Positions 21,020 through 40,837 of a stretch of 64,000 nt of DNA are shown piece after piece; position 1 is the stretch's first letter; the number at the start of each line of letters is the position of its first letter. The position numbers and the translations under genes were made by a program. The DNA lies in contig JANQID010000024.1 of NCBI GenBank assembly GCA_028282325.1, positions 1 to 64,000 on the forward strand. Direction: 5' to 3'. Source of the DNA: Chloroflexaceae bacterium (GTDB lineage: Bacteria; Chloroflexota; Chloroflexia; Chloroflexales; Chloroflexaceae). Under the pieces are notes generated by a model that saw nothing but the letters and a program-made list of their open reading frames with translations, was not told where the DNA came from and made no database searches.

Positions 21020-21158
21020 TACCAAACAATATGGGAGACACCGCATGGGGTCATTCTGAGCGCAGCGAAGAATCTCCGATTCCCCCAACGCCGAGACCCT
21101 GACTCTGAGCGAAGCGAAGGGGAAGGGTGATATGCGGCATACTCATCATCGTTTGGTA
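21020..21158. mobile_element. MITE-like element, copy A (complete)
   Basis: A 139-bp non-coding element with terminal inverted repeats TACCAAAC / GTTTGGTA, extended on both sides by GC. A second inverted match (CCGCAT / ATGCGG) lies inside at symmetric distance, and the left part carries the block TCATTCTGAGCGCAGCGAAG. The same length and ends occur in copy D at 38384-38522. No clear target duplication is seen here (TGC left, GCG right). It fills the 486-nt hisS-phaJ gap just before the phaJ ribosome-binding site; the remaining sequence (20698-21017) shows nothing recognisable. Confidence 0.8.
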
Positions 21159-29462: not shown

Positions 29463-32400
29463 CTACCTTTGGACAATTGGCAGGTAGGTCAGGTAGTCCG
29501 GGGATGAACCCTTGGGCGCTGGCGTCGATGTGACAGTGGGCTGTGGTGTTGCCGTAGCAGTTGGATCGGGCGGATTGTCGGTTATCAAAACCGAGCCGTG
29601 ATCCGCAACCCCCGGAAGTTCGCCGCCTTGCGAGTCGCTAAATGACAACGTCACAAAGTCAACGGCGGCTTCTGTGTCACGGGTTGGCGTGTCGCTCGCA
29701 GTGAAGGTGATAGTTGCAATCGTGCCGTCGGTGAATTGCGGGAACGGCGGTGGTGCAATGGGCGGGTTAAACACCAGGCTGAGTTCACCGTCCGTCTCAT
29801 TCGCATCGAATGTAACCGATGCAATCGTACCCGTCGGCAGATTAAACGTTATTGCATCAGGCACGCCATTGCTATCGCTATCCGTCGGGTCGAAGGTGAG
29901 CAAGGTTTCATCGTAGTTGATGATGAAGTCTATCCCAACGATATCTGCGCCGTTGGTTGTGAGATTGACTGGCACAACCACTTGATCGCCAGGCATCACC
30001 GGAATATTGTCAGGAATAGCGATCTCCGGCTCGCCAAGCTCCGGTGCAACGCCGGGTCGGACGCCTGCTACGGCGTTATTGTTATTACCCGAAATGATCA
30101 AGATGATCGACGTGATGTCCCCGGCTTCGATACGGGTATTCTGGTTGGCGTCACAGCCCACCGGGTTGCCAGGGAACGTTCCTCCAGGCGTGTCTTCGGC
30201 AAGGTCGCCGTCGCCGTCGTAGATTTCCAGAATCGCTGCCGTGATGTCGCTCGAACCGACGACCCCATTGCCGTTGCAGTCGCCAAGGAGTCCGGATTGA
30301 ATCTTAACTGATCCATCGACTGGGATGCCATCGACTGCATTGCCGTTCGTGTCGCCGAAAGAAGGCGCCGGATCGTTAGAGAATTCGACCGGCACGATGA
30401 TCGTGCTGCCATAACCCGGTTGACACGCCTGAGTTGATCGCACGGTGAAACGCATCGTTACCAGCACGCCATCAGGCAACGTAGAGAATGGCACGGAGCT
30501 ATCCACGATCGCGAAGTCTAGCTCGCCATCGGTATCGCTGGCGTTGAAGCTGACCGAGCGTGAGAATTGCGACGGTACACTGAATATGATGTCATCGGGA
30601 ATGCCATCGTTGTTTCCATCGGAAGGATCGAAAATCAAGCACGCCTGCGTGTAGTTCACCGAGAAGATCGCCGAAGCCAAGTTGAAGCCATTGCCGGTAA
30701 GAATGATTGGCACATCAACCGGCGCACCGACCGTGCCTGGAATGTTGCTGGGGATCGTCAAGACGCTGCCGTTCTGCACAACCAGCGTCACCGGTACGGT
30801 CACCGGATTCTCATCTGGATCATTGCTGGAGATGACAATGTTGGCGTTATAGGTTCCCGCCGCAAGATCCGTCGAGTCGAAGGTCAGCGTTATCTGCTGA
30901 CTGCCGCCGGCGCTGACTGAGCCGCTGTTTGGCGCGACGCTGAGCCAGGTTATGCCGCTGCCGGCAGCCGCGACTGCATTATAACAATCAATTCTTCCGT
31001 AGCCGTACGTATAATCGGGACCCGAAGCGCCAAGGTCTGCCGTCGTGCTGGTAAGGATATTCTCAACGGCTTCGACGCTAGTGCCCGGCGCCTCGGCAAG
31101 AATCAAGGCCGCACAACCGGCGGTATGCGGGCTGGCCATCGATGTGCCGTTGTAGGTGGCATACCCTCCATCTTCAACCGACGAGCGGATCGATTTACCT
31201 GGCGCAGTAACATCCGGTTTCGTCTCACCGGTAACCGGCGAGGGACCGCGGGCGCTGAACGAAGCAATCACATCACCGCTATCAGTCGCACCGCTGGCAA
31301 AGCTTTCGGCATAGCTTCCCGGCGAGCCCACGCTTCCCGATCCGGCTGCTCCGTTGTTTCCTGCCGAGAAGGCCGGGAAAATGCCTGCTGCTCGCCAGGC
31401 GTTGACCGAAGCTTGATACCAGGTATCGCTGCCATTATTGCTGCCCCAGGAGTTGTTGACAATGTTCGGGCGCTTGCTTGCATCGCCGTTTCCGGGCGAT
31501 CCGCCAATCGGGAACGGCGCCAGCACCCACTCGGCAGCAGCCAGGAGATCGCTGCCGGAGCAAGAGCTGCTCGCGCACCCTTTCGCCGCAATCCATTGCG
31601 CATCAGGAGCGACGCCGATTTGATTGCTGCCGCCGTCATCGCCGACCATCGTGCCCATCGTGTGCGTCCCGTGCCCATTGTTATCGTTGGGCGCGCTTGG
31701 ATAGGTGCCGGTCGGATCAAACCAGTTATAGTCGTGGCTGCCGGTCGTCGTGCCGCGGTATTGGCTTGACAATGCTGCATGGCTGCGTAGAACGCCGGTG
31801 TCGATGTTTGCGACGACGACCCCCTCACCGCGGTTGTTGAAATCGCTCCAGACATCGTTCGCTCTGATCTTGTCAATGCCCCACTCGACCCCATCGACCT
31901 GGCTATCGGTTTCAGGCTCAATGACCGGATCGGGGATCGCGTAGTTCTCAACGGCTTCAATGTAGGCGACATCCGGGCGGGCGGCAAGTTCGTTGATAGT
32001 ATTGAGGCCGCCGTGAACCAGAATGGCATTGACGATGTAGTACGACTCATAGCTTGCAGCATCGCCGCTCTGGATCTGGGTATCGAGCAAACGTGTCAGA
32101 CTGGCCTGGCTGCGTCTGGCCGTATTCCAAAGCGTTTCGTAGACATATTGCCCACGCTCGTTCCAGTCACTGATGGTGTAGGCATGGCTCAGGTCGGCCT
32201 GCTCCGTCAGATAGACCAGAACATCGCCCTGCCCATCAGGCGCTGCTGCGATCTCCTGGCGAAGCCCCGCTTCGACTTTTTCCTCCCGGAAGCTCAGGGG
32301 CTGACCGGCGACACCGGCGCCGGTAATGGCAATATTGAAGTTGAGCGGGCCATTTCCAACATTGCCGATGGTCATCGTGCGGGTTTCGTTCTGCCCCGGC

Positions 32401-34691
32401 GGCATTGAGACCGAGAACGACGTTGGATCGACCGTGATGTCGGGTTGTTGTTGCGTTTCAACATTCTTGCGAATCTCGATGCTATCGATCCAGGGACCTT
32501 CGTAGTTAACAATATAGTCACTCTGGAAGACCCAGGCCACCCAGACTGTAGAGTCGCCCGTATAGCCATCATAATTCACATCGTAGGACGTCCAGTCTGA
32601 TGAACCATCCCAAAAGATGCCGTTGAAGTTATTTCCATCGCTTGATACGCCAAAGAAGATGCTGTCATAGTTGGTTTCGATCTGCCGCCACATTTTGAAG
32701 AGGGTATCGGCCTGAGTGGCGTTGCTCAGGTCAAATGGACCGTAGATCATCCAGCTATTCATATAGGGCGGATATTTTGATGTTGCCGGATCAAGTCCGT
32801 TGGCGCCGCCATCCGCCGGCCAGCCGGCCCAGGAACCGGCATACGGCCGGTAATCATCGTCGTCCCATAAGAACTCACAGCCGTCGTCGCTCCCATCAAG
32901 CAACTCCCAACCGCTGGTCGGGAACATTCCCTCGAAAGTTTCTGCGTCGATGACTTGCCAGTTATTCGGCTGTGCATCACCCTGCGCAATATCCACCGGC
33001 TGCTGATCGTCAGTAGCGGCAGTTGCGGTTGCATCGGGACGACTCAGCGAACCGGCGCGGCCAATTGACCCAGATTCAATCTCGACTATCGGGCCTTGTG
33101 GAGCATAGTACGCGCGCATCGAGGCAGCGGTCACTTCACCCTGATCGCCGGGAACAAGGTCACGCACTATGAGGCGCCACTCGCCTTCCGCCGACTCGCC
33201 TTCAAAAGCCGTCAGGCCCAGCGCGTTGCCCAGGGTTGTGCCCTGAAGCGCCGTTCCTTGATCCCAGAGGGTTTCGCTGACGTCACTATTCGCTTTCGTC
33301 AGGCGCACCTCCAGTTGATCAGGATCGGGATGATCAAGACGGTACTTCACATACGCCTGATCGACCGTGCCATTCGCCGGGGCGTTGGGGTCGCTCAGAG
33401 GAAGCTCCAGCCAGCTTCCATCGTCGGGAATGGTACGATCGGCGGCAGCCGTGTATGGCCCGCAGAACGTCACATCCTTCGTGACCGAGATGTTATCAAC
33501 GAATGGTCCGTCATCAAGCACCGATGCGTCGCTATAGAATTTCCAGCCTACCCAGACGGTGCTATCGCCAACCCAATCGGCCATTCCAACGGTTATTTGC
33601 GTCCAGTCGGCGTAGCCATCCCAGTAATAACCATAGAAATTCGTCCCGTTCCCCGATACCCCGAAGAATGCATAGTCGTAACTGACTTCGATCTCGCGCC
33701 AGAGATAAAATATAGTTTCGGCATCGTTTGCATCGCTCAAGTCAAACGGGCCGTACACCATCCACGTATTCATATTATTGGGATAGTAATAATAATAGGG
33801 ATCGAGACCATCGGCGCCACCGTTGGCCGGCCAGGCCGACCAACTGCCGCCAAACGGTTTGTAATCGTCGTCATCCCAATAGCGCTGATAGCCATCATCA
33901 CTCAAATCGTAGAGCGTCCAGCCATTGGATGGAAATGCTCCTTCAAAGCCTTCGTAGAGGATGGTCTGGGTAGTCTGGAGCGACTCATCGCCGGTTTCTC
34001 CAGGGGCTTTTACGTCGTGATCTGGCGCAGACTCGGATTCCATTTCCCAAACCGGCGCCGGAAGGGATTGTACGCCCGGTTGTGCGCTGCCATCATCGCC
34101 GCGTAGTTCAGGCAGATCAACCGTAGCGTCGTAGGAGATGACCATGCTCACGCTAGCGCTTTGGCCCGCTAGGTCAGTACTCTGGGGATTCAGTTGAACC
34201 GTCCACGCGCCGGCTACGTCGGCGCCATCCAGGCCGTGGAAGGTGTCCTGGGTTCGATTGAGTGTAATATCGCCGCTATCGCTATCAGCGGTTTTCGATC
34301 CAGATGGCGCTTGCACGGATTGCATATCCGCATTGAGAGCTACGCGAACTGCATTGGTCTCGGGCGCTGCGACGAAGGCGTCAATTGGTAAGCCGGTATT
34401 GCCTTCGATGCTCACCTTCAGATCGACGCCGGCTACAACCGCGCCCTGAGGCACATCCTCAATATTCAGAGTCGCGATCGCTCCGTCTTCTCCTATAATG
34501 ATACCTTCCTGGAAAGCGTGGGTGACCAGGCGCTGCGTTGCCGCAGGCTGAGCTGGGGCCATTGGGGGTGTGGGGGATTGTAGAGCCGGTTTTGTTGACA
34601 GAGCAATCCCGAAAGAAGTACTGCCTATCAACAACGTTGCCCCGATCAGCGTGAGGAATACGTACAGAACTCGTCGTGTTGCACCGTTCAA
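29463..34691 (-). CDS. Secreted subtilase (S8) with P-domains, cohesin modules and dockerin
   Basis: A 1742-residue exported protease. After a signal peptide (RVLYVFLTLIGATLLIG) come two P-domain-like regions (about 57-190 and 410-527), two repeated Asp-rich beta domains that begin EGFEGAFPSNGW and TFEGMFPTSGW (about 243 and 580), a BACON-like region near 750, an I9-type propeptide (about 820-920), and the S8 domain with D in NIDTGVLRSH near 961, H in GHGTHTMGT near 1005 and S in GTSMASPHTAG near 1183. Then follow cohesin-like modules (about 1310-1435 and 1557-1680) on either side of a dockerin-like repeat (GDCNGNGVVGSSDI; CDANQNTRIEAGDI), a Thr/Pro linker and the tail YLTYLPIVQR. Substrate unknown. 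Confidence 0.87.
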   Translation of the reverse strand: MNGATRRVLYVFLTLIGATLLIGSTSFGIALSTKPALQSPTPPMAPAQPAATQRLVTHAFQEGIIIGEDGAIATLNIEDVPQGAVVAGVDLKVSIEGNTGLPIDAFVAAPETNAVRVALNADMQSVQAPSGSKTADSDSGDITLNRTQDTFHGLDGADVAGAWTVQLNPQSTDLAGQSASVSMVISYDATVDLPELRGDDGSAQPGVQSLPAPVWEMESESAPDHDVKAPGETGDESLQTTQTILYEGFEGAFPSNGWTLYDLSDDGYQRYWDDDDYKPFGGSWSAWPANGGADGLDPYYYYYPNNMNTWMVYGPFDLSDANDAETIFYLWREIEVSYDYAFFGVSGNGTNFYGYYWDGYADWTQITVGMADWVGDSTVWVGWKFYSDASVLDDGPFVDNISVTKDVTFCGPYTAAADRTIPDDGSWLELPLSDPNAPANGTVDQAYVKYRLDHPDPDQLEVRLTKANSDVSETLWDQGTALQGTTLGNALGLTAFEGESAEGEWRLIVRDLVPGDQGEVTAASMRAYYAPQGPIVEIESGSIGRAGSLSRPDATATAATDDQQPVDIAQGDAQPNNWQVIDAETFEGMFPTSGWELLDGSDDGCEFLWDDDDYRPYAGSWAGWPADGGANGLDPATSKYPPYMNSWMIYGPFDLSNATQADTLFKMWRQIETNYDSIFFGVSSDGNNFNGIFWDGSSDWTSYDVNYDGYTGDSTVWVAWVFQSDYIVNYEGPWIDSIEIRKNVETQQQPDITVDPTSFSVSMPPGQNETRTMTIGNVGNGPLNFNIAITGAGVAGQPLSFREEKVEAGLRQEIAAAPDGQGDVLVYLTEQADLSHAYTISDWNERGQYVYETLWNTARRSQASLTRLLDTQIQSGDAASYESYYIVNAILVHGGLNTINELAARPDVAYIEAVENYAIPDPVIEPETDSQVDGVEWGIDKIRANDVWSDFNNRGEGVVVANIDTGVLRSHAALSSQYRGTTTGSHDYNWFDPTGTYPSAPNDNNGHGTHTMGTMVGDDGGSNQIGVAPDAQWIAAKGCASSSCSGSDLLAAAEWVLAPFPIGGSPGNGDASKRPNIVNNSWGSNNGSDTWYQASVNAWRAAGIFPAFSAGNNGAAGSGSVGSPGSYAESFASGATDSGDVIASFSARGPSPVTGETKPDVTAPGKSIRSSVEDGGYATYNGTSMASPHTAGCAALILAEAPGTSVEAVENILTSTTADLGASGPDYTYGYGRIDCYNAVAAAGSGITWLSVAPNSGSVSAGGSQQITLTFDSTDLAAGTYNANIVISSNDPDENPVTVPVTLVVQNGSVLTIPSNIPGTVGAPVDVPIILTGNGFNLASAIFSVNYTQACLIFDPSDGNNDGIPDDIIFSVPSQFSRSVSFNASDTDGELDFAIVDSSVPFSTLPDGVLVTMRFTVRSTQACQPGYGSTIIVPVEFSNDPAPSFGDTNGNAVDGIPVDGSVKIQSGLLGDCNGNGVVGSSDITAAILEIYDGDGDLAEDTPGGTFPGNPVGCDANQNTRIEAGDITSIILIISGNNNNAVAGVRPGVAPELGEPEIAIPDNIPVMPGDQVVVPVNLTTNGADIVGIDFIINYDETLLTFDPTDSDSNGVPDAITFNLPTGTIASVTFDANETDGELSLVFNPPIAPPPFPQFTDGTIATITFTASDTPTRDTEAAVDFVTLSFSDSQGGELPGVADHGSVLITDNPPDPTATATPQPTVTSTPAPKGSSPDYLTYLPIVQR

Positions 34692-34909
34692 GATCCTCTC
34701 CTTTCAACATTGCCAGATCGTGGTAGTCTGGCGTCGCAGCAGGTTAAGCGAGCTGGGAAAGAAACTGCGATGGTGGCAAGACTATTCCGACTTCGAAACA
34801 GGTGATATGAGCGGATTGTAAAGAGGTAAGGATGTAGGTAAGGACAGGAACAGTGTACGACAATACATAGCTGCTTGTCACCCCGCAAACCCAGTATTTT
34901 TTTGCAAAT

Positions 34910-35153
34910 TTGCGGCAGTTTAGCGACTTTACTTCTGTATCAACCGTCAGTCGGAGACGCTTTTTGATTAGAGCAGCGGGCGTGAGCGTGGCGGCTCTGG
35001 ATGGCTGGGCGATGCAGCCGCCGCCCCTGAAATTCATCGAACGAAGTTACGGCGATGCGGCTGCCAGCAGGGCAGTACTCGTAGCTTACGCGAGCCAGTA
35101 CGGCTCGACGAGGGGGCGTGGCCGATGCTATCGCCGCAGCCTTGTATGAGGAC
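34910..35153 (+). pseudogene. Flavodoxin-like protein, 5' half (split pseudogene)
   Basis: The frame has a twin-arginine-like segment (SRRRFLIRAAGVSVAAL) followed by the flavodoxin start AVLVAYASQYGST. A one-base frameshift near 35116 is needed to continue as GVADAIAAALYED, the expected helix after the FMN phosphate loop. The sequence then stops at GAC (35151-35153), exactly where a MITE copy begins. The missing rest lies at 38526-38748. The start codon is uncertain (TTG at 34910 or further upstream). The gene cannot make a functional protein. Confidence 0.75.
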
Positions 35154-35217
35154 TACCAAACAATATTGGAGGCACCGCATGCGGTCATTCTGAGCGCAGC
35201 GAAGAATCTCAGATTCC
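35138..35217. repeat. 80-bp direct repeat, left copy
   Basis: Positions 35138-35217 are identical to 38368-38447, 3230 bp apart. The repeat consists of the last 16 bp of the flavodoxin 5' half plus the first 64 bp of the MITE. It marks the left edge of the inserted island. Confidence 0.9.
35154..35217. mobile_element. MITE-like element, copy B (left end only)
   Basis: Starts with the same TACCAAAC end as the complete copies and continues through the block TCATTCTGAGCGCAGCGAAG, then breaks off at 35217. The right half with its inverted repeat is absent; protease-like sequence follows. Confidence 0.8.
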
Positions 35218-35283
35218 GGGGCGGAGCACGATACTTCACATACACCTGATCGACGGTGCCATTCGCCGGGGCGTTGGGATCAT
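35218..35283 (-). pseudogene. Fragment of a P-domain protease gene
   Basis: The minus strand encodes GTVDQVYVKYR, matching GTVDQAYVKYR of the protease at 29463-34691 (its region near 33340). Nearly the same block occurs at 38250-38315. It is a scrap of a paralogue, joined directly to a MITE end, with no start or stop. Confidence 0.7.
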
Positions 35284-35365
35284 CTGCTCATCGAGATCAT
35301 CGAGGGTTCCGCTCTTGCGAGCGGTCAAATACTTCTCAAAGAAGCGATCGAACGCTGGCTTCTCC
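35283..35365 (-). repeat. Duplicated 3' end of the TPR gene (83 bp)
   Basis: Positions 35283-35365 repeat 35425-35507, which lies inside the TPR gene, with one mismatch and an offset of 142 bp. It encodes part of the C-terminus (EKPAFDRFFEKYLTARKSG) on the minus strand and lies beyond the TPR stop codon, so it is not translated as part of it. Confidence 0.88.
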
Positions 35366-36478
35366 TTATCGAGCGTTTTCGATATAAGACCATGCTTCAC
35401 CATTCGGTTGGAACATCGGGAGCGTCTGCTCATCGAGATCATCGAGGGTTCCGCTCTTGCGAGCGGTCAAATACTTCTCAAAGAAGCGATCGAACGCCGG
35501 CTTCTCCTGGTTGTATTCTGCAAGCTTTGATATGAAAGCCACAGCGTTTTTTGCTTTGACCCGCGGCACATTAAATGCCTGTACTATAGAAACAATGCCG
35601 AACAAAATTCCTAACAATATAAGGGAGCCACAAGCGGTAGTCGCGGCGGACGGCATAGCGCCATACATTAGCGTAACACACATCATTGACACAAGTGTTA
35701 GCAGTATTATAGACACTCCGACTGCAATTAGCTTGAAGTTGGTCTTTGGTTGGGTGTCTTCCTGCGTATACAGCGTCGTCATACCCTGCTGGTAAAGCGT
35801 TTGTGCGGTGTCCAGATAGGCATTGTAAGCTTTTCGGACGTACCCTAGTGATTCTACCTCTCGATCATCATCCTCAGCCTGATCCGACTGTCCCAGCTCT
35901 TTATAGGACGCAGCACGGAGTTCTCTCAGCTCTGCATCACTTTGCCGCAAGGCAATGGCTTCGGAAAAATCAGCAACCGCTTTCGCATGGTCTCCCGTCA
36001 AGAAGGCATGCAACATGCCTCGCAATTTGTAGCCATAAGGCGATTTCGGATCAAGCGTGATCGCCCGCGAATAATCAGCCAGGGCTTTGTCAGTTTTTTG
36101 CATTTTAGTATATAGAGTTCCCCGCTCACGATAGTTCGCTGCGTCACCAGGATTAATGCGCACCGCCTCATTGAAGTTGATAAGAGCTTCTTCATAATCA
36201 CCTAACCTCCTCAACGCAATGCCCCGGCAGAAGTAGCCTGTATCTTGCCTTGGTTCGATCTGTACGCAGGCAGTGAAGTCACGTATCGAACCGGCAATGT
36301 CGCCCTTAGCCAGGTAGCACCATCCCCTATGCATATGCATATCCATATGCACCTGTTCTGAGTCATTCTCCATTCCAAGTGCTTGAATATGCTGAAGTGC
36401 CTCGCTTAGATTCTGAATGGCCTCATCATGACGATCCATGAATCGCAGAGCAACTCCAGCAATATAATAGCCGCCCAT
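35366..36478 (-). CDS. TPR protein with two C-terminal membrane helices
   Basis: A 370-residue protein, not recognised as a known family. The first 230 residues are tetratricopeptide repeats (GYFCRGIALRRLGDYEEALI, YRERGTLYTKMQKTDKALAD and others). Two hydrophobic helices follow (about 255-277 and 287-310: LIAVGVSIILLTLVSMMCV and CGSLILLGILFGIVSIVQA), then a charged C-terminal domain. The ATG overlaps the stop of the upstream 99-aa gene (ATGA), so translation is coupled. Base composition is more AT-rich than nearby core genes, and the gene is inside the repeat-flanked island. Role unknown; TPRs imply protein binding at the membrane. Confidence 0.78.
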   Translation of the reverse strand: MGGYYIAGVALRFMDRHDEAIQNLSEALQHIQALGMENDSEQVHMDMHMHRGWCYLAKGDIAGSIRDFTACVQIEPRQDTGYFCRGIALRRLGDYEEALINFNEAVRINPGDAANYRERGTLYTKMQKTDKALADYSRAITLDPKSPYGYKLRGMLHAFLTGDHAKAVADFSEAIALRQSDAELRELRAASYKELGQSDQAEDDDREVESLGYVRKAYNAYLDTAQTLYQQGMTTLYTQEDTQPKTNFKLIAVGVSIILLTLVSMMCVTLMYGAMPSAATTACGSLILLGILFGIVSIVQAFNVPRVKAKNAVAFISKLAEYNQEKPAFDRFFEKYLTARKSGTLDDLDEQTLPMFQPNGEAWSYIENAR

Positions 36479-36777
36479 CAGTGCCTCTTTATCTCTTTTA
36501 GTTGCTGAGCCAATGCTAATCCTGTGTCATAGTCACCGTCGTTAATGGCATTCCGCGCTTTAATGACGGTATCCTGCAATTGGCGATCCTTGTTTGCCTG
36601 GTGTCGCGCGACCGCACCGCCAATTAACACCCCCGCAATCCCAACAGCGGTGCCAATACCTTTGCCGATATCTTCAGCTTCCTCTGCGGCCGTTTTCTCG
36701 CGCGTGGTGACGTGATAGCGCTCTCCAAACAAGGATCTATGTTCGCGGGTCACATATCTATCACCCTTGTTACCCAT
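36478..36777 (-). CDS. Small protein with glycine-zipper-like hydrophobic segment
   Basis: A 99-residue protein with a charged N-terminus, a glycine-rich hydrophobic stretch (GKGIGTAVGIAGVLIGGAVA, about residues 39-58) and a helical, lysine-rich C-terminus. The Gly spacing resembles glycine zippers, which pack in membranes. GGGAGGACAG lies before the ATG. Its stop overlaps the TPR start, so the two form one operon. No family is recognised. Confidence 0.65.
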   Translation of the reverse strand: MGNKGDRYVTREHRSLFGERYHVTTREKTAAEEAEDIGKGIGTAVGIAGVLIGGAVARHQANKDRQLQDTVIKARNAINDGDYDTGLALAQQLKEIKRH

Positions 36778-36813
36778 TCCTGTCCTCCCTACTGGTATAA
36801 GCCCGTATCAATG

Positions 36814-36826
36814 CATTGTCGCATTG
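36814..36826. promoter_or_regulatory. Putative XRE operator near the small-protein gene
   Basis: CATTGTCGCATTG matches 12 of 13 bases of CATTGTCGCAATG at 37007-37019, which is the core of a perfect palindrome near the XRE gene. It lies 37 nt upstream of the 99-aa gene start on the minus strand. It is a candidate shared operator. Confidence 0.5.
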
Positions 36827-37004
36827 TGCGTCCACAATCATTGATTGCTCTAAGTGCTACTGTGGCCCGGCGTAGAAATGCCTTATTGTTGTACCCAGAC
36901 AGGGTACTATCGAAGCAAAATCGGATAATGACAAACAATTCTTTGAAGTCTTTTTGTGTTACAATAATGGACATATATATGGAGGCTTGAAACACAGTAT
37001 AGAG

Positions 37005-37021
37005 GCCATTGTCGCAATGGC
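37005..37021. promoter_or_regulatory. Palindromic operator upstream of the XRE gene (site 1)
   Basis: GCCATTG-TCG-CAATGGC is a perfect 7-bp-arm palindrome in the 314-nt gap between the small-protein operon and the XRE gene, 71 nt before its start. Its core recurs at 36814-36826. Confidence 0.6.
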
Positions 37022-37031
37022 AAGTCCGTTA

Positions 37032-37048
37032 ATGCAACATTGTTGCAT
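37032..37048. promoter_or_regulatory. Palindromic operator upstream of the XRE gene (site 2)
   Basis: ATGCAACA-T-TGTTGCAT is a perfect 8-bp-arm palindrome 44 nt before the XRE start and 11 nt after site 1. Arrays of palindromes here are typical of autoregulation by helix-turn-helix proteins. Confidence 0.6.
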
Positions 37049-37091
37049 ATCATACACGACCGAGCAGCCTCCTGGCGCAGAGGAATGCCAT

Positions 37092-38123
37092 ATGACCGAG
37101 CGCGCCCCGCTTCCCGAAACGCCTGCCATCATTTCCCATCTCGGCGAGCTGCTGCGCCGGGCGCGGCAGGCGCGCGGACTTTCTCAGGCTGACATTGCGC
37201 GGGCCTGCGGCGTGCATCGCTCGACAATCCTGCACTTCGAGGAGCATGGCCAGCTCTTTCGCTTGCGCGAGACCTATCTGCGCTACGTGCAGGCGCTCGA
37301 AGCCGCATCGGTCGGCAGCCCCGACTTGCCGATCAATCCCTCCCGGCGCGCGCTCCTGCACGATCTCTTCGACCACGCCCAGCGCCCGCGCATCGCCCAG
37401 GACGAGGCGCACCTGGCCGCCATCAGCTTCGGTGCCACCCGCGACAGCAACGCCCCGGCCCTGTGCGCGCTGCTCGATGACCTTCAACGCCAGCCGTTCC
37501 CGGCGGCGCTCTTCGATGAACTCGGTTTTGCGCATGCCTTGAACGGGGCGGTGTTCAAGCTGTTCGGCGCGAATCCCGCCGATCCGTACTACCAGACCTG
37601 GGAAGCCTGGCACGCCTTCGCGACCAAGCTGCCGCGCGCCTCGCCGGTGCGGCGGTCGTATACCGCCTTCGAGAACGCCGACCTGTTCTTTACCGCCGCG
37701 CTTTATCAGTTCGTGGAACGTATGCACGCCTACCGCTACCTGTTCACGCGCCAGATGCGCGCGCTCCAGGCGCGCCTGGCGGCCCTGGCCCGGCGCGAAC
37801 GCTATCCGTCATACGAAGCCGGCTGGCGGCTGGTCAGCGCGCTGCAAGTCATCCCCGGCATCGACGAAGCATTGCGCCTGGTGCGCTTCGAGGATGATTA
37901 CCTCTTGCTCAGCATTGCGCCCCAACTGCCCTGCCGCGTGCAGCTACGCGGAAACGGTGTGATCTGGTATACCCCGGTAATCTGGCGACCGCAGGGGGCG
38001 CTGTCCGAACAGGCGCTGGCCTCCTTCCAGGACAGCCGCCTGTTCTTCGCGGCGGACTTCGATCGCCACAACGCCTTCCACGTCAACGCCTGGCCGGAGT
38101 TGCGGGAGCTGTGGCACGGCTGA
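37092..38123 (+). CDS. XRE-family helix-turn-helix regulator with unknown C-terminal domain
   Basis: A 343-residue protein. Residues about 14-70 form an XRE-type HTH (LGELLRRARQARGLSQADIA, then ACGVHRSTILHFEEHG). The remaining 270 residues are rich in aromatic and Arg residues and match no domain I know; the closest thought, MmyB-type ligand domains, was not supported by motifs. ATG 37092 has AGAGGA 8 nt upstream; longer in-frame versions cross the palindromic operators. It is notably GC-rich compared with the TPR gene next to it, so the two may have different origins. Confidence 0.78.
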   Translation: MTERAPLPETPAIISHLGELLRRARQARGLSQADIARACGVHRSTILHFEEHGQLFRLRETYLRYVQALEAASVGSPDLPINPSRRALLHDLFDHAQRPRIAQDEAHLAAISFGATRDSNAPALCALLDDLQRQPFPAALFDELGFAHALNGAVFKLFGANPADPYYQTWEAWHAFATKLPRASPVRRSYTAFENADLFFTAALYQFVERMHAYRYLFTRQMRALQARLAALARRERYPSYEAGWRLVSALQVIPGIDEALRLVRFEDDYLLLSIAPQLPCRVQLRGNGVIWYTPVIWRPQGALSEQALASFQDSRLFFAADFDRHNAFHVNAWPELRELWHG

Positions 38124-38145
38124 GGATCAATCCTCAGGTCGAGTA

Positions 38146-38184
38146 ATTCTCAACTGCTGGTTGGGAACGTTCCCTCGAATGTTT
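38146..38184 (-). pseudogene. Fragment of a P-domain protease gene, left of MITE C
   Basis: The sequence CTCAACTGCTGGTTGGGAAC and its continuation match, with a few changes, the protease gene near 32905-32945. It stops where MITE copy C begins. With the piece at 38240-38367, in the same order as the full gene, it represents a broken paralogue. Confidence 0.65.
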
Positions 38185-38185
38185 C

Positions 38186-38240
38186 TACCAAACAATATTG
38201 GAGGCACCGCATGCGGTCATTCTGAGCGCAGCGAAGAATC
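38186..38240. mobile_element. MITE-like element, copy C (left end only)
   Basis: Begins with the TACCAAAC end and includes the block TCATTCTGAGCGCAGCGAAG, then passes into protease-derived sequence at about 38241. Its junction with the following sequence is almost the same as that of copy B, so both derive from one rearrangement that was later copied. Confidence 0.75.
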
Positions 38241-38367
38241 CCCGGCTCCGGGGCGGAGCACGATACTTCACATACACCTGATCGACGGTGCCATTCGCCG
38301 GGGCGTTGGGACCATCCAGTGGAATCGCCAGCCAGTCTCTATTATCGGGGATGACGCGAACAGTGGT
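38241..38367 (-). pseudogene. Fragment of a P-domain protease gene, right of MITE C
   Basis: Matches the protease gene region near 33330-33456, including the stretch that encodes GTVDQVYVKYR on the minus strand and the following Trp-containing segment, at clearly reduced identity. No frame remains open over the whole piece. It runs straight into the right 80-bp repeat. Confidence 0.65.
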
Positions 38368-38447
38368 AGCCTTGTATGAGGACTACCAAACAATATTGGA
38401 GGCACCGCATGCGGTCATTCTGAGCGCAGCGAAGAATCTCAGATTCC
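38368..38447. repeat. 80-bp direct repeat, right copy
   Basis: Identical to 35138-35217. It holds the last 16 bp of the flavodoxin 5' half followed by the left 64 bp of MITE copy D. It marks the right edge of the island. Confidence 0.9.
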
Positions 38448-38522
38448 AATAACGCCGAGACCCTTCACTCCGCCTGCGGCTCCGTTCAGGGTGACGTGCG
38501 GCGTGTTTATCATCATTTGGTA
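38384..38522. mobile_element. MITE-like element, copy D (complete, with target duplication)
   Basis: A 139-bp copy, the same length as copy A, with ends TACCAAA / TTTGGTA. It is flanked on both sides by GAC (38381-38383 and 38523-38525), and removing the element plus one GAC joins the flavodoxin reading frame as YED-GIAADVR. This gives a 3-bp target duplication and shows that the element inserted into a coding gene. No ORF is inside, so mobilisation needs a transposase elsewhere. Confidence 0.85.
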
Positions 38523-38525
38523 GAC

Positions 38526-38748
38526 GGCATCGCAGCCGACGTTCGTCGGGTCGATAGCGTGGCGGATCTCAGCGCCTACCGCGCCGCGATCATCGACGCG
38601 CCGGTATACTCAGGATTACAGCAAGATGTCGCAGGCGAATCAGGCCCTCTACCGGATCTTCGCGACCGAGAGCAGCGACGGCGATTATCGCGATTTCGCG
38701 GCGATCGGCGCGTGGGCCAAAGCGTTGCGCCCTCGTCTGGTCGAGTAA
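38526..38748 (+). pseudogene. Flavodoxin-like protein, 3' half (split pseudogene)
   Basis: The frame begins GIAADVRRVDSVADLSAYRA and continues AAIIDAPVYSG, the expected second part of a flavodoxin domain after the 5' half at 34910-35153. An internal deletion and frame change at about 38620 joins it to the C-terminal end DYRDFAAIGAWAKALRPRL, closed by TAA at 38746. So this gene is broken by a MITE, a 3.2-kb island, an internal deletion and a frameshift. Confidence 0.75.
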
Positions 38749-38790
38749 TCCGGACGTGGGCTGCGATCTACCTAACTCCAGGCGAATCAA

Positions 38791-38828
38791 ACAGGCGACG
38801 CGGGAACATCTCCCCCGTCGCCTGTTTC
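38791..38828 (+). terminator. Terminator beyond the flavodoxin pseudogene
   Basis: ACAGGCGACG (38791-38800) pairs with CGTCGCCTGT (38816-38825) and the stem is extended by GGG/CCC with a bulge; TTTC follows. It lies 43 nt after the pseudogene stop and 34 nt before the end of the convergent glycosyltransferase gene. Confidence 0.65.
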
Positions 38829-38861
38829 GCCACTGCAACACTTATGGCAGTTGCTGCGCGC

Positions 38862-39824
38862 TTATTGCAACACGCTTCGATCTCCAAGCTCGTCGATTAG
38901 ACCCTGATAGTAGCGTAGGTTAAACAGCGCGCTGTATGATGCCTGACTCAGGCGTTCGATCCGGGCTACCTGGGCGACCCTGGCTGCCAGACGCAACGCC
39001 CACATAGTCGCCCCGCTTAACAATTTGCGATCAAGACACAGCTTCACGAGCATTTGCGCCAATGGATGGCGATAAGAGAACTCCTCGCGTACAGCGTCGA
39101 GAATCCAGTCCTGCCCTTTGGTGTGTGCAAAAAGTGCGTCATTGCGGCCATATGTATAGGGAATAGCGAACCAGGAACGAAAACTGCGTTCGGCGTAGTG
39201 ATAGCCAATTGCTTGCGAATTGAAAATAAATGTTAACCCGCGATCGGCCAGCCGGTAGGCCAGTTCAACATCCTCTGCTCGCCGCAGCGTCTCATCGAAG
39301 CCGCCCGCAGCCTGAATATGAGCCCGTCGCAACGAGGTATTGCCGGTATAGAATTGACGGGCTGTGGGCGCCCAGTCGCCGTTCTCCATTGCGCGGTACT
39401 GCTTCATTAACATAGCCTGTTCCCAACGCACCCAGGGCGCCATTGTGAAGTCATCCGGCGTCAGCATAGGCCCCAGGACAATTACTTCTTCGTCGTGTGC
39501 GGTATGCACGCACATATGCTCCGCGATCAACTGCTCGGCAGGTACGACGTCGTCATCGATAAACAGTGCAAACTCGCCTTGCGCGGCTTGTATGCCACGA
39601 TTGCGCGCCGCCGCTGGCCCTTGATTAGTCTGAACGACCAGTTGCATATTCAGCGGCGTTTGAAGCGAACGCAGATACTCGTGGGTTCCGTCGGTAGATC
39701 CATCGGAAACAATGACCACTTCAACGCTGGGTAACGGATATTTTTGGCGCTCCAAAGCGGACAATACGCGCTTGAGACGATCAACGCGATTATAGGTAGG
39801 AATGATGATACTAACAGCGCTCAT
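38862..39824 (-). CDS. Family 2 glycosyltransferase
   Basis: The 320-residue protein is a GT-A fold family 2 enzyme: VSIIIPTYNRVDRLKRVLSA at the N-terminus, VVIVSDGSTDGT, AAARNRGIQAAQGE and the metal-binding IDDDVVP. The acceptor-side motif AEDVELAYRL stands near residue 185. It would add a sugar to a glycan or lipid, acceptor unknown. Its start overlaps the stop of the upstream glycosyltransferase by 4 nt (ATGA), so the pair is an operon. No membrane segment is obvious. Confidence 0.86.
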   Translation of the reverse strand: MSAVSIIIPTYNRVDRLKRVLSALERQKYPLPSVEVVIVSDGSTDGTHEYLRSLQTPLNMQLVVQTNQGPAAARNRGIQAAQGEFALFIDDDVVPAEQLIAEHMCVHTAHDEEVIVLGPMLTPDDFTMAPWVRWEQAMLMKQYRAMENGDWAPTARQFYTGNTSLRRAHIQAAGGFDETLRRAEDVELAYRLADRGLTFIFNSQAIGYHYAERSFRSWFAIPYTYGRNDALFAHTKGQDWILDAVREEFSYRHPLAQMLVKLCLDRKLLSGATMWALRLAARVAQVARIERLSQASYSALFNLRYYQGLIDELGDRSVLQ

Positions 39825-40837
39825 CCGTGATTACTCCGATATAAAGCGGAAGCGCTATCAACAGGATAGCGCAGACCCTTTGCAAACCCAACCCAGGGAT
39901 AGTAGAGCTGTGACAGTCCGACCAAAACCTTTTTCATGCTGCGCCACTTGATCGCGCCTGATAGCGTCTGGCGTATTCCCTGGCTCAACAACCACTCAAT
40001 GAAGAGTGCAATCGCGCCGACATCGCCGCTGCGCATATATTTTGCAACCGCTGCTCCGGTGCCGATGCCATAGTTGCGATAACTTTGCTGAACGCCTTCC
40101 CATGTCTGCCAATGGCAGTGATATACTGTTGCGTCGGGTGTGTAAACAATCTGACCGCCGCGCCGGAGCGCACGATACCCAATATCGCGCTCGTCCCACG
40201 AGCCGAGCGGGCCGCCTGCCCCCAATAGCTCGTCGAATCCGCACAGGGTTTGGAAATGCTCGCGGCGCACCGCCATATTATGGCCGTGACCGAAGGCGAG
40301 ATTAAACCGATTGTTTTTGTAGACTTCACGCCACGGCGTCTCTTTCAAAGCGAGAACAACCTGCTCGTTATGTCGAACGTTCGGAGATATTTCAGTAGAA
40401 TCTGGCTTGTCACCCGGCAGCACACGTCCAAAAACAAACCAGGTTTCTGGCGCTCTGAATTCTTGAATTAATGCCTCGATCCAATTTGGCGCCACAATGC
40501 AATCATCGTTAGTAAACAAAATGTAGGGAGCCGAGCCAAAAGTCGAACCAACATTACGTGTAGGCGCTAACCCACGTAGCGGCATACGATGGTAGTGAAC
40601 GCGAGGATCGACTTGGACATAACGAGCGACGCATTTTTCAGTAAGATCATTTTCACTTTGATCAAATACCCACAGGTTGAAGTTCCAATGCGCACTCTGG
40701 CAAATGCTTGCAATCGTGCGATCAATTTGACAACCTCGCCGATAGGTGGAAATCACAACATCAACCGGTATGTCCCGCATAATCTTAAGGCAATACATCG
40801 CATCAGCCGATGTCGAGTACGCCTTTCTCCTTTCCAC
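39821..40837 (-). CDS. Family 2 glycosyltransferase
   Basis: A second GT2 enzyme of up to 338 residues. Motifs: DVVISTYRRG near the N-terminus, LAPTRNVGSTFGSAPYILFTNDDC (DD metal site) and SWDERDIGYRALRRGG. AC-terminal hydrophobic amphipathic part follows. The start is unclear: GTG 40837 opens the frame, but the best ribosome site (AAAGGAG) lies just inside it, and ATG 40798 is also possible. Forms a two-gene unit with the next gene, likely for surface polysaccharide or glycolipid synthesis. Confidence 0.83.
   Translation of the reverse strand: MERRKAYSTSADAMYCLKIMRDIPVDVVISTYRRGCQIDRTIASICQSAHWNFNLWVFDQSENDLTEKCVARYVQVDPRVHYHRMPLRGLAPTRNVGSTFGSAPYILFTNDDCIVAPNWIEALIQEFRAPETWFVFGRVLPGDKPDSTEISPNVRHNEQVVLALKETPWREVYKNNRFNLAFGHGHNMAVRREHFQTLCGFDELLGAGGPLGSWDERDIGYRALRRGGQIVYTPDATVYHCHWQTWEGVQQSYRNYGIGTGAAVAKYMRSGDVGAIALFIEWLLSQGIRQTLSGAIKWRSMKKVLVGLSQLYYPWVGFAKGLRYPVDSASALYRSNHG

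Follow-up and report, generated by a model that had tools for sequence, protein, structure and literature searches.

Here we show that the 3.15-kb segment separating the two halves of a flavodoxin pseudogene in a Chloroflexaceae bacterium is the scar of an insertion and not a mobile island. The segment was probably joined to the chromosome by homologous recombination on one side and by microhomology on the other, at a MITE, a small transposon remnant, that was already resident in the flavodoxin gene. The window analysed here is the first 64,000 nucleotides (64 kb) of contig JANQID010000024.1, and the features of the locus are collected in Table 1.

The two flavodoxin pieces had been assigned to one protein in the first-pass annotation, and they do form a single Tat-signal protein: alignments of relatives run unbroken over the interruption, with 45% identity over residues 44-122 in genome G049 and 36% over residues 7-117 in genome G042. 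Deleting the 139-bp MITE at 38384-38522 together with one copy of its GAC target duplication (35151-35153 and 38523-38525) restores the reading frame at the site, where the flavodoxin flanks with a single GAC give a continuous ...VADAIAAALYED-GIAADVRRVDSVADLSAYRAAIIDAPVYSG, read as ...AAALYED followed by GIAADVRRV.... The full MITE copy flanked by flavodoxin on both sides and the GAC duplication bear out the earlier proposal that the MITE landed before the segment. Decay of the host gene by frameshift and deletion, also proposed earlier, is visible in both forms. There are three lesions. One is the MITE, another a +1 frameshift that lies in a G run near 35115, and the third is an internal deletion, of about 65 aa in comparison with L060 (estimated by eye), accompanied by a frame change after VYSG. 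A glycosyltransferase is encoded downstream of the 3' part, at 38862.

Table 1. Features of the interrupted flavodoxin locus (positions in the window)
Feature	Position	Strand	Remarks
Flavodoxin pseudogene, 5' part	34910-35153	+	Tat-like signal SRRRFL, flavodoxin motif VAYASQYGST
80-bp perfect direct repeat, left copy	35138-35217	+	16 bp flavodoxin + 64 nt MITE left half
MITE left half (copy 1)	35154-35217	+	like copy 3 to ATTCC, then like copy 2 (GGGGCGGAGC...); hybrid junction
Subtilase P-domain paralogue fragment, 63 bp	35218-35280	-	nearly identical to 38250-38312
Duplicated 3' end of TPR gene	35276-35366	-	97% to 35418-35508, spacing 142 bp
TPR-repeat gene	35366-36777	-	frameshift near 36478-36500, giving 370-aa and 99-aa frames
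XRE/HTH_31 DNA-binding protein gene	37092-38123	+	intact, 343 aa
Subtilase paralogue fragment	38139-38185	-	ETFEGTFPTS, in-frame stop; 83% to 32896-32943
MITE left half only (copy 2)	38186-38249	+	sits within subtilase paralogue fragment
Subtilase paralogue P-domain fragment	38250-38378	-	82% to 33339-33432; 79% over 33339-33457
80-bp perfect direct repeat, right copy	38368-38447	+	exact match to left copy
Complete MITE (copy 3), 139 bp	38384-38522	+	ends TACCAAAC...ATTTGGTA, GAC/GAC flanks
Flavodoxin pseudogene, 3' part	38523-38748	+	internal deletion and further frame change after VYSG

The element in the flavodoxin gene is a genuine MITE: it is non-coding, has terminal inverted repeats (a short perfect stretch of 8 bp with an imperfect continuation), duplicates its target site and is present in high copy number. 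A pattern for its left part matched 176 times (94 + 82) in the 4.6-Mb genome, the reversed control pattern not once. The ends are TACCAAAC/GTTTGGTA, complete copies running from TACCAAAC to (A/G)TTTGGTA with a modal length of 139 bp. A target duplication of 2-3 bp is present in 48 of the 58 inspected copies for which both ends were found, where about 1 in 16 would be expected by chance for a 2-bp duplication; GC is the commonest, and six of these 58, the flavodoxin copy among them, have GAC or GTC. Most copies in the genome match the flavodoxin copy at 86-95%, and MITE copies mostly differ by 5-13%. The DNA folds only moderately better than shuffled versions (z -2.3), and folding prediction does not yield a single long hairpin of simple form. 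In searches of 60 relatives only the core of the element (about positions 31-113 of 139) was matched at length, at about 71-93% identity, and among the matches listed for these relatives no full-length copy with TACCAAAC ends occurs outside the bacterium's own genome. This core, GTCATTCTGAGCGCAGCGAAGAATC ... CGTTCAGGGTGAC, occurs commonly within the family (relatives G001-G036). A further complete copy with a GC target duplication lies in the window at 21020-21158, many copies in the genome bear an extra tandem right-half unit of roughly 48 bp, and some form arrays (contigs C16, C49 and C131).

The direct repeat at the ends of the segment is identical at 80 of 80 positions, with exactly the limits first reported, and its composition of 16 bp of flavodoxin (35138-35153) followed by the first 64 nt of the MITE is likewise as described then. 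Exact repeats of at least 30 bp elsewhere in the 64-kb window are only nested repeats of this same locus, which places the 80-mer beyond chance. The ends of the island share a longer repeat still: the left end also matches the region around a second half-MITE (copy 2, 38186-38249) over 132 bp at 96%. Copy 2 had been overlooked in the first-pass annotation, and for that reason the structure of the left junction was missed as well. Copy 1 tracks the resident MITE to ATTCC and then, from TCC followed by GGGGCGGAGC, tracks copy 2 (TCC followed by GGGGCGGAGCACGATACTTC...) for 70 bp (69/70), the single difference lying near the far end of this stretch. At the left junction parts of two MITEs are combined into a hybrid, direct evidence of an exchange between them; a coincidental placement is not plausible. 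Smaller junctions in the segment also show short homologies, such as GGGA..ATC at 35276-35284.

The right junction has a different anatomy and lies outside the MITE. Here the subtilase fragment and flavodoxin share a 10-of-11-bp match, AGCC(T/G)TGTATG, at 38368-38378; the intact subtilase gene reads GCAGCCGTGTATG and flavodoxin GCAGCCTTGTATG (alignment of 33339-33457 with 38260-38378). An exchange confined to the MITE could not copy 16 bp of the host gene; their inclusion in the repeat is explained by a right joint at a microhomology that is not part of the element. The original suggestion that the segment entered by recombination at the MITE thus describes the left side, with its hybrid element, and fails for the right.

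In composition the segment is a patchwork: a frameshifted TPR gene, an intact HTH gene, and a half-MITE-bearing pseudogene fragment that represents a paralogue of the adjacent subtilase. The intact subtilase gene occupies 29463-34691 on the minus strand, adjacent to the flavodoxin locus. G+C content is 67% in the HTH gene and 50% in the TPR part. The final 95 bp of this HTH gene recur with 96% identity on another contig of the genome (C52, 36618-36712; L092), standing alone behind a probable otsB gene, the product of which looks like a trehalose-phosphatase from its translation. Immediately behind its stop codon the TPR gene is followed by a second copy of its own 3' end, spaced 142 bp from the first. 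A search of GTDB genome contigs returned no relatives of the HTH protein, and no Rfam family was found in 34000-40000. The rest of the genome contained no donor locus for the TPR or subtilase fragments. Among the island frames, which comprise only TPR, HTH and pseudogene fragments, no integrase, transposase or other recombinase was recognised. This speaks against classing the segment as a genomic island or integrative element, and the notion of a mobile island, given a cargo that consists partly of pseudogenes, is abandoned here.

From the two junctions, the anatomy of which is directly visible, we infer the following order of events and enzymology. That the 139-bp MITE inserted in the flavodoxin gene, duplicating GAC, is shown by the letters themselves. 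A segment carrying the TPR gene, the HTH gene and the subtilase paralogue fragment with its half-MITE would have arrived later. On the left, strand exchange between the resident MITE and the incoming half-MITE, over about 57 bp of identity, would have produced a hybrid MITE that passes directly into the subtilase fragment. On the right, illegitimate joining would have taken place at the 11-bp microhomology AGCC[T/G]TGTATG, 16 bp upstream of the MITE. The duplication of 80 bp would follow from the position of the right joint upstream of the left one. Such a process would be akin to homology-facilitated illegitimate recombination (HFIR) or, equally, to a replicative template switch with return. 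Several observations count against this history: 80 bp are duplicated, whereas the recipient normally loses DNA of similar length in classical HFIR; with no donor locus found elsewhere in the genome, origin and order are tentative; the exchange point in the hybrid MITE falls within only 3 bp common to both partners (TCC), after several mismatches; and the paralogue sequence at the right junction is deduced from the intact subtilase gene.

A second locus in the genome offers a parallel to part of this structure. On contig C69 (64250-64950; L143) a 27-bp host flank and about 66 nt of the MITE left half are duplicated in tandem beside a full MITE, with one mismatch in about 93 bp and no insert. 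When 103 copies were tested for duplication of the left flank, a non-MITE host flank duplicated together with a left half-MITE was found only at the flavodoxin locus and on C69, the remaining hits being mostly MITE-in-MITE tandems or the match of copy 2 to the subtilase gene. The C69 case therefore keeps two further readings in play. In one, breakage or slippage in the palindromic MITE would have created a tandem duplication of flank and left half, into the junction of which the segment was inserted later. We regard this as unlikely: C69 shows that such a duplication exists without an insert, but two separate steps leave unexplained both why the inserted DNA starts exactly where MITE copy 2 continues and why the right junction has a microhomology. 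In the other, palindromic MITEs would be recurrent points of breakage and capture, central breakage duplicating flank and left half and trapping foreign or distant DNA, a reading that we put forward very tentatively. Breaks at about nt 62-67 occur in 3 of 104 examined copies, two of them at the flavodoxin locus and the third on C69; other truncations in these 104 are scattered along the element, given which central breakage is only a suggestion.

The subtilase gene next door lies in the same orientation as the fragments, which are its paralogue, and a local tandem duplication of the region from flavodoxin through the MITE to the subtilase paralogue, followed by deletion between MITEs, could be imagined; it is rather improbable, because the island genes are not repeated downstream of the flavodoxin 3' part and further deletions would be needed. 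Still harder to sustain is a composite transposon, a unit at 35154-38522 from TACCAAAC to ATTTGGTA that jumped whole into flavodoxin. The unit is bounded by true MITE ends with GAC on either side, but 16 bp of flavodoxin (38368-38383) stand immediately before the inner full MITE, an arrangement impossible for a unit that came from elsewhere. The left MITE, moreover, is without its right half, so that the unit has neither two complete ends nor an interior free of host DNA, and no second copy of the whole exists in the genome. An assembly artefact at a high-copy repeat is very improbable, and a mis-join at the 80-bp repeat unlikely: many contigs do end within MITE copies, but in three independent groups (C75/C136/C64, C13/C17 and C23/C24) the contig ends overlap by exactly 99 bp. 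The assembly k was therefore about 99 and exceeded the length of the repeat; each junction is covered by its own unique k-mers, and the window contains no Ns.

As to age, the first-pass annotation had called the event not recent on account of the decayed host gene. For the loss of the gene this may be right, and the decay may be older than the insertion; for the island it is not supported, with the 80-mer intact at 80/80 and the subtilase piece at 69/70. The insertion probably postdates the bulk of the MITE spread, since the repeats are about 100% identical against the mostly 5-13% differences among MITE copies, and gene conversion between the repeats is also possible. RecA recombination across the 80-mer could delete the island. 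DNA and protein searches of 60 relatives, which belong to the same family and order but to other genera, yielded neither an empty nor a MITE-only site, and the island was not found a second time, either in these relatives or in the bacterium's own genome.

As a fossil, the locus shows clearly how short homology for splicing unrelated DNA into a chromosome can come from dispersed MITEs, and the traits of its junctions, namely the hybrid MITE, the microhomology and the short duplication, can still be read. It adds no new system and records ordinary processes; its value is that of a worked case, and it cautions that not every segment between direct repeats is a mobile island.

With bacterial MITEs such as Nezha, ERIC, RUP, NEMIS and similar elements (PMC3733652), the element described here has in common a length within 70-300 bp, no coding capacity, terminal inverted repeats, high copy number and target duplication. 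It is set apart by a target duplication of 2-3 bp, by 8-bp perfect inverted repeats that continue imperfectly, and by a palindromic core that also occurs in related genomes while, among the matches listed, the ends are confined to its own. MITE-mediated composite mobilisation likewise involves a segment between two MITE copies in the same orientation, but the left copy here is a half element and the internal 16-bp piece of host DNA excludes joint transposition. HFIR combines homology at one end with a micro-homology of 3-10 bp at the other (PMC3240628). The present locus departs from it in having a short duplication of recipient DNA in place of the usual deletion, and in being anchored on a dispersed MITE with no donor locus found in the genome. 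In a study directed at HFIR in E. coli, mostly duplications of the homologous locus were recovered, and these were ascribed to a single crossover of a circularised molecule (PMC3240628). What the locus shares with HFIR in Acinetobacter, pneumococcus, P. stutzeri and E. coli (PMC3240628) is an insert of kilobase size with homology at one end, where the hybrid MITE at 35154-35217 runs into the flank of copy 2, and microhomology at the other, as deduced for the paralogue through the intact subtilase gene.
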